Below, one piece after another: positions 2,122-3,291 of a stretch of DNA of 34,148 bases. The stretch spans positions 1-34,148 of IMG/VR virus record IMGVR_UViG_3300025313_000078; one strand, written 5' to 3'. The position numbers and the translations under genes were made by a program. The notes beneath the pieces were generated by a model. The model worked only from the letters and a program-made list of their open reading frames with translations, had not been told where the DNA came from and searched no databases. Position 1 is the first letter of the stretch; each line of letters starts with the position of its first letter. The stretch comes from a virus.

Positions 2122-2327
2122 TTTAGTAACTCCTTTATTTTATCACACATTTTATTGTAATAATCAGGTTCTAATTCTTTTATTTTATTTAATAAGCCAT
2201 TTATTCTTTTTACTAAGTTGAATCTTCTTTTATTAAATTTTCTTTTATTAAACTTAGAAAATAAATTATGAATTTTTTGTTTTAATTTTAAATTAGGATC
2301 TTCTTCTATAGTTACTTTACCAAGCAT
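2118..2327 (-). CDS. Small basic hypothetical protein (69 aa)
   Basis: A 69-aa, strongly basic, predicted all-helical protein with a repeat-like basic patch (KFNKRKFNKRRFN at about residues 25-37). The ATG lies inside the last codons of the secreted fibre-like gene (overlap of 11 bases), and its own stop overlaps the following gene's ATG. The composition would fit RNA or DNA binding, but no motif is seen and the product is unidentified. Confidence 0.55.
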   Translation of the reverse strand: MLGKVTIEEDPNLKLKQKIHNLFSKFNKRKFNKRRFNLVKRINGLLNKIKELEPDYYNKMCDKIKELLK

Positions 2328-3291
2328 TTAATATTATCCATTTTGAGTCACTTAAAGCTAAAAAAACCATATTTATATTACTATGCATAGGCTGACCTAT
2401 ATTTACTGCTTTAGGTGCAATTTGATCTCCTGTATCTGGAAACACAGTTAAAACAGTACTAGTACTATTTATAATTGTAATTTGTTTACCGCGCTCAGCT
2501 ATTGGAAGTTTAAGAGCTAAATCTGTGACGCTAGCTGTAGTTATTTCATTTATAGTAGATGGTAAAGCTAAAGCAGTTCCTTGAGTCGCACCAGTTGCAG
2601 CTAGAGATTCTGTCACAGTGTTTCTTACCTGTGTAGAACTTTTATTAAAAACTATATCATCTCCATTAATTGATTCTTGATAAAGCTCCCCAACGTCACC
2701 AACTAGACCTCCAGAAATAGCCCACCTTTCCATGGAATCTGTACCAAAATAAACACGTTGTTGACTATGTGTATAAATATAAGCACTAGCACCAGCAATA
2801 GAGCCGACATTATTTGTATCTCCTGCATCTATCCCCGCTTGACCTGAAGCTAAAGTGTGATCAATGCCGTGAAGTAATAATCTTCCACCAGTAGAAGTAT
2901 CAGAATCAGAACCACCTCCTATTTTTATTCTAGAAGTATTAGCAGTCATTGAAATATCTTGAGTATTAAAATTTGTTGAATCTCCTAAATATTCTACTTT
3001 ACCATTATTTTTCATGGTCATAGTATTTATATTATTATTGAAAAAGAAAATTGAATTTGGGCCACGTGTACCAATAGACATATAGCTAGCTGTCCCAGTT
3101 AAAAGTGCTGCTCGACCTGGTTGAGTAGCATGAGTATTACCAAATATTTGAATAATAGCTCCATCCGTATCAGTAAAGCCTAAGCCACCTTCTATAGTAT
3201 AAGAACTCGCATCATCTGCTCCAGATACAGTTACATCAGCCGCATAAGATAAATTAGTAAGTAATAAACTTAATAATATTTTCTTTAACAT
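2317..3291 (-). CDS. Secreted fibre-like protein with Sec signal peptide
   Basis: A 324-aa protein beginning MLKKILLSLLLTNLSYAAD: a standard signal peptide with SYA before the predicted cut. The strong AAGGAAATTT before the ATG supports this start. The rest resembles the rightward fibre protein at 28452-29519: two Gly/Ser-rich repeats ending in segments such as VYFGTDSMERWAISG (compare LFTDSLLRWSVTG). The C-terminal domain has ITIINSTSTVLTVFP and ends FLALSDSKWIILNAW, similar in layout to the fibre's VTNRGANALLVYP and end. So it is a likely exported paralogue of a virion fibre. Possible roles are receptor masking, a decoy, or a component assembled outside the cytoplasm; none is proved. It is followed by several tiny genes and preceded by another virion-like gene. 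Confidence 0.75.
   Translation of the reverse strand: MLKKILLSLLLTNLSYAADVTVSGADDASSYTIEGGLGFTDTDGAIIQIFGNTHATQPGRAALLTGTASYMSIGTRGPNSIFFFNNNINTMTMKNNGKVEYLGDSTNFNTQDISMTANTSRIKIGGGSDSDTSTGGRLLLHGIDHTLASGQAGIDAGDTNNVGSIAGASAYIYTHSQQRVYFGTDSMERWAISGGLVGDVGELYQESINGDDIVFNKSSTQVRNTVTESLAATGATQGTALALPSTINEITTASVTDLALKLPIAERGKQITIINSTSTVLTVFPDTGDQIAPKAVNIGQPMHSNINMVFLALSDSKWIILNAW

Follow-up and report, generated by a model that had tools for sequence, protein, structure and literature searches.

A tail-fibre paralogue with a predicted Sec signal peptide in a variable cargo interval of a phage

Phage fibres and exported phage envelope proteins are both already known. Superinfection-exclusion proteins such as Llp of phage T5 block secondary infection as well as adsorption to lysed fragments, according to the available text of PMC9586334. 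Llp is an exported phage envelope protein that stops receptor binding, which is the function proposed below for the product of the gene studied here (P0001); however, Llp is a small lipoprotein and not a fibre, whereas P0001 has no lipobox. The mosaic adhesive trimer (MAT) fibres of Bdellovibrio, as far as the accessible part of PMC10769870 describes them, have a signal peptide that leads into a conserved domain of 130 aa and, in 13 of 21 cases, an S74 domain. They resemble P0001 in having a signal peptide and a phage-like fibre body, but they are encoded by bacterial genes, and neither the 130-aa domain nor the S74 domain was found in P0001. In Listeria, a secreted metzincin and a lipoprotein of phage origin (Mtz/Tim) sensitise the cell to phage lysins (PMC8235301, available text), and short tail fibre paralogues have been described in the Vequintavirinae (PMC8594841, available text). 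A full-text literature search, which mostly did not extend to subscription journals and is thus weak evidence of absence, found no description of a phage tail fibre paralogue that is exported.

The window analysed here is the whole 34,148-nucleotide stretch of virus record IMGVR_UViG_3300025313_000078. P0001 lies on its minus strand (2317..3291) as an open frame of 324 codons (324 aa) with an ATG start and AAGGAAATTT directly 5' of it. When P0001 was searched against the record at E values up to 10, it recovered, besides itself, a single match (8e-16), the paralogous fibre P0002 (28452..29519, plus strand, 355 aa), which is presumably a part of the virion given its position among the virion genes. 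The original prediction that the two products resemble each other was borne out by BLASTP, which gave 30% identity over 275 aa (E 4e-17). The part common to both consists of two repeats of about 90-100 aa each and a C-terminal domain; both repeats aligned, as did FGTDSMERW (P0001 residue 182) with LFTDSLLRW (P0002 residue 216). Repeat 1 of P0001 (2968..3240, minus strand; core GAIIQIFGN) was detected at residues 22-90 by a repeat HMM built without P0001 (i-E 5.7e-6), and repeat 2 (2668..2967, minus strand; core GGRLLLHGID), which contains FGTDSMERW, at residues 116-195 (i-E 4.5e-4). The C-terminal domain (2320..2649, minus strand) is common to P0002 and, weakly, to a 998-aa protein of a related phage, as revealed by alignment and by an HMM from which P0001 was left out (i-E 0.0024; E for the whole protein 0.072).

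The homology begins at residue 21 of P0001, or residue 4 once the predicted signal peptide is removed; in P0002 it begins at residue 58. The N-terminus of P0002 received no signal-peptide call from our home-made rule, and its residues 16-46 gave a weak match to PF12219, an endosialidase-type tail spike family (22 bits against a cut-off of 25). P0001 thus has the repeat body and the C-terminal domain of a virion fibre (E 4e-17 against P0002; repeat HMM 4.6e-9), whereas a signal peptide stands where a virion fibre would have a non-exported N-terminus before its repeats. Since the signal peptide of P0001 faces a different N-terminus in P0002, the two proteins differ by an N-terminal swap. In a tree of ten repeats only one of the seven inner branches was starred and the branches were long, so the order of parent and derived fibres could not be read from it. 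The repeat core RGAxIxLxGNE was eroded in P0001. The P0001 sequence was identical in all five near-identical contigs of the phage (975 of 975 bases), a uniformity that gives no selection test. AlphaFold2 models of P0001 with P0002 alone (pLDDT 34.6) and of mature P0001 with nine related rows (pLDDT 38.2) were both too poor for a fold search or for a comparison with the trimeric beta-helix fold of the MAT fibres, and PADLOC gave no match for P0001.

The N-terminus of P0001 consists of an n-region MLKK, a hydrophobic stretch ILLSLLLTNL and an expected cleavage site between SYA and AD, so that residues 1-17 (MLKKILLSLLLTNLSYA, followed by ADV; 3241..3291, minus strand) form the predicted Sec signal peptide. 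The region around this site has no lipobox cysteine. The signal-peptide rule, which was home-made and is not SignalP, requires that a positive n-region be followed by a hydrophobic core and by a cleavage site of an allowed type; seven of eight control signal peptides passed it, five of them at 3.7. P0001 scored 3.75, a value reached by only 0.02% (45 aa) or 0.18% (30 aa) of 5000 shuffles of its own N-terminus. These shuffles are a better single argument for the signal peptide than the genome-wide counts. Among ORFs of at least 60 aa from five related phages, 7 of 304 scored at least 3.7 against 0.75 expected from shuffles, a count in which the cut-off was fixed post hoc with the scores already known and one ORF was counted twice. 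No pseudo-N-terminus at an internal methionine reached 3.7 (0/1013). Without that cut-off the rule called 11 of the 304 ORFs, where about 4.3 were expected, and in the phage of the window alone the calls were not above chance (2 of 68 against 1.02 expected). Four weaker calls (g5_798, g6_37845, g7_19219 and g7_44624) look false and were set aside. The clean Sec signal peptide originally proposed for this gene held up under the shuffle comparison, and export of the product, which would pass through Sec and be cut after residue 17, is well supported at the level of sequence.

Portal searches led to the relatives G005, then G006, G007 and G008, together with a 4-kb fragment (L039). Portal identity to the phage of the window was 55% for G005, G006 and G007 and 42% for G008. 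P0001 gave no match in these four IMG/VR records, which may be incomplete, and P0002 matched in G007 only; the fibre repeat was likewise not found in the records of G005, G006 and G008. In G007 (IMGVR_UViG_3300036982_000470), two proteins with the repeat, 998 and 578 aa long, are encoded after spike-like genes and before the later tail genes. Both start with strong signal peptides that differ in sequence from that of P0001. A direct search of G007 with P0001 returned nothing at E 10, and the link between the two is clear only through P0002 and through profiles. The repeat HMM built without P0001 recovered it at E 4.6e-9 among 323 proteins (one of them duplicated), and an HMM made from four G007 repeats alone recovered it at 1.2e-4, where no outsider did better than 0.058. 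The repeat HMM matched ten times in the 998-aa protein, six times in the 578-aa protein and twice in P0001.

The G007 proteins are like P0001 in that a signal peptide is followed by the same fibre repeats, and the 998-aa protein also has a weakly similar C-terminal domain; they are unlike it in being longer, in having more repeats and in being encoded among tail genes. Three of the four repeat proteins among the 323 carried a strong signal peptide; the hypergeometric value of 3e-5 for this pairing overstates it, as the two G007 proteins are paralogues of each other and the cut-off was set post hoc. A predicted signal peptide is kept while its letters change between P0001 and the G007 proteins, and the recurring feature is such a signal peptide in place of the virion-type N-terminus of other fibres. 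The gene had also been described as lying outside the virion module. This holds for the window, where the probably exported paralogue is encoded away from the virion genes, but not for its G007 counterparts, so that a location away from the virion genes is not what sets these proteins apart. The 578-aa fibre probably starts at the ATG of MKIIRSLLF, which overlaps the stop of a 138-aa gene by ATGA. The product of this 138-aa gene resembles that of window 25537-25971 (38% over 112 aa), which in turn resembles the N-terminal part of the pectate-lyase-type spike encoded at 25971-27740. Other proteins in the tail regions were also seen. In G007, an 87-aa protein with the top signal-peptide score (L052 13249-13512, minus strand) adjoins the 998-aa fibre and has no PHROG match. 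In G005, 632- and 150-aa proteins (L031 3590-5940, minus strand) have N-termini that look hydrophobic and signal-peptide-like by eye but were not called by the rule, and the 632-aa protein contains TPT-rich repeats.

The phage of the window was represented by four further near-identical contigs, one of which, G002 (55,982 bases), overlapped it; with the bridge of about 2.1 kb that the window supplies, the two give about 58 kb. Of the five contigs, the window and G002 alone include P0002. The terminase and portal gave no match in a tblastn search of 50,697 phage records (limits 1e-3 to 0.1), and neither did P0001, P0002, the 133-aa protein and the metzincin-type protein described below or the G007 998-aa protein at these limits. 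The portal and the probable major capsid protein, which was named by position, had no PHROG match. The family A DNA polymerase matched 4219 of the 50,697 records, all below 60% identity. The lineage is remote from named phages. P0001 and the 998-aa protein had no match among plasmids; a viral scan with the G007 fibres recovered G007 alone; and scans of genome contigs with the fibre pair and the probable capsid pair, based on short peptide patterns, confirmed no relative. A search of the PDB by sequence gave one chance-level match for the P0001/P0002 pair (0.2) and none for the 998-aa protein.

The genes around P0001 form part of an interval that stretches from an SNF2-type helicase to a PD-(D/E)XK nuclease, assigned by gene coordinates and families (1..5356 in the window, minus strand). 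From the coordinates, its length comes to about 6.1 kb in the phage of the window, 3.3 kb in G007, 0.25 kb in G005 and 0.22 kb in G006. The helicase, the nuclease, a ssDNA-binding protein and a family A polymerase follow in the same order here, in G005 and in G006; the G007 record contains the first three, and the G008 record, of these four, the polymerase only. Besides P0001, the contents here include Dam, a 133-aa gene and two small genes as well as genes for a lipoprotein and a metzincin-type protease; those of G007 include a glycosyltransferase (PF13704) and a methyltransferase. Because both length and content vary among relatives, P0001 was regarded as cargo in a variable interval. The 133-aa protein (3304..3705, minus strand) has no signal peptide, ends 12 nt upstream of the fibre start and had no Pfam, PHROG, NCBIfam or phage match. 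Downstream of P0001 lie genes of 69 and 75 aa, the 69-aa one with weak matches to polymerase and reverse-transcriptase models. These are followed, 0.6 kb downstream of P0001, by a pair of genes 9 nt apart (895-1761): a small acidic Cys-containing lipoprotein of 72 aa (1543..1761, minus strand; cut between LFVS and C, as predicted from sequence and the signal-peptide rule) and a metzincin-type protease with HELGHNLGAIHD and VMNS (895..1533, minus strand; PF01421, 25.5 bits against a cut-off of 20.8). The protease has a hydrophobic N-terminus, which the home-made rule did not call as a signal peptide.

The gaps flanking the 133-aa gene are 5 and 12 nt, which suggests one transcript with Dam and hence expression in the replication phase. 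A terminator-like hairpin near the end of Dam (3761-3742, minus strand) counts against one transcript from Dam to P0001. Terminator-like sites in positions 1-8300 numbered 7 against 2.5 expected, and promoter-like sites were at chance level (41 against 44.8). Several other features of these genomes were recorded. Two 243-nt copies, 80% identical, lie at window 6652-6894 and 7207-7449 (minus strand); they are rich in Ser, Arg, Cys and Tyr when read as ORFs, may be non-coding, and the one that was scanned had no Pfam match at E 0.01. Rfam identified only a tRNA-Cys (7856-7927). Methyltransf_24 genes occur at window 15173-15709 (minus strand) and at L054 5574-6104 (plus strand) in the G007 cargo interval. 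A 139-aa protein of the window's phage (L014 14610-15029, minus strand) has no Pfam match at E 0.1 but looks phospholipase A2-like by eye; it adjoins a coiled-coil gene for which the PHROG matches were to minor head and tail needle proteins. G005 encodes a papain-family cysteine protease (L030 3487-4245, plus strand; PF00112, 46.9 bits) near the end of the equivalent of the leftward arm.

Our preferred reading, which we put forward tentatively, is that P0001 is an exported receptor-binding fibre that acts as a receptor mask or decoy, either in superinfection exclusion or by blocking debris. The protein would be translated from the cargo block among the replication genes, and after export and cleavage it would fold as a fibre, perhaps as a trimer, in the periplasm or outside the cell. 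As it follows the plan of P0002 in its repeats and its C-terminal domain, it would probably bind the same class of surface ligand, although 30% identity and the eroded repeat core indicate that its ligand may differ from that of P0002. It would then most likely occupy or mask the receptor on the infected cell and on lysis debris, and the masking would spare sister virions and rivals unproductive adsorption. This function is consistent with the homology to a virion-module fibre, the signal-peptide sequence and the recurrence in G007, as well as with the variable interval, which holds a glycosyltransferase and a methyltransferase in G007 and lipoprotein and metzincin-type neighbours here. In a host with two membranes a Sec product ends up in the periplasm, and no outer-membrane export domain was found in P0001 with Pfam. 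The homologues among the tail genes of G007 fit a late or a virion role equally well. By analogy with T5 Llp, a role in superinfection exclusion or as a decoy would be plausible.

The Bdellovibrio MAT proteins, fibres that have signal peptides, are akin to those of phages and were shown on the cell surface (available text of PMC10769870), suggest that P0001 might instead be an adhesin that alters the behaviour of the infected cell towards matrix, prey or neighbours rather than a receptor blocker. The adjacent protease and lipoprotein genes would suit such general envelope remodelling. We consider this unlikely, since no integrase match was found among the proteins scanned (some small ORFs were left out), so that a benefit would be needed within one infection, and since no room is left after the signal peptide for the conserved 130-aa, beta-rich MAT domain: the match to the phage repeat HMM already starts at residue 22 of P0001, in a comparison with the MATs made by description and not by sequence. 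The same neighbours could belong to a block that loosens the envelope, with the fibre released at lysis or bound to the wall. The Listeria pair described above is of phage origin and, like the pair here, has a lipoprotein gene adjoining a metzincin-type gene; it is a precedent for two of the genes near P0001 and fits an envelope-directed gene block, but it concerns the neighbours of P0001 and not the fibre, the lipoprotein here has only 72 aa, and the likeness noted is in gene arrangement. The position of the pair here, 0.6 kb downstream of P0001, and the place of the G007 fibre genes among tail genes also favour a link to lysis. Such a link is nevertheless distinctly unlikely, because the endolysin-like gene lies away from the P0001 block (29919-30506), the 69- and 75-aa genes separate P0001 from the pair, and we know of no wall activity of such fibre repeats.

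The G007 repeat proteins bear on a virion role as well, being encoded among tail genes, one of them with the ATGA overlap to a gene resembling a spike N-terminus. P0001 could then be a virion component whose hydrophobic start stays uncut, or an exported fibre that joins virions after lysis. However, the N-termini of P0001 and of both G007 proteins have the look of cleavable signal peptides, the P0001 gene lies apart from the virion genes, and tailed phages are assembled in the cytoplasm, which together make this very unlikely. The eroded repeat core and long branches would also suit the view that P0001 is drifting cargo, a duplicate that was translocated and now does little; against this stand the open 324-codon frame, the good ribosome-binding site, the intact signal peptide and the identity across the five contigs, uninformative as that is about selection, and we regard drift as highly improbable. 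More remote still is a tailed-phage lineage in which Sec-exported receptor-binding fibres meet the virions only outside the cell, by extracytoplasmic maturation of tail fibres or by coating of virions after lysis.

If the mask or decoy reading of P0001 is true, phages copy their own receptor-binding proteins in soluble or surface form, with a signal peptide in place of the virion end, and this modular swap would be a simple way to mask receptors. A gene that looks fibre-like and lies among tail genes would then need not encode a part of the virion. The finding would also link the fibres of virions to the phage-like fibres that bacteria such as Bdellovibrio export.
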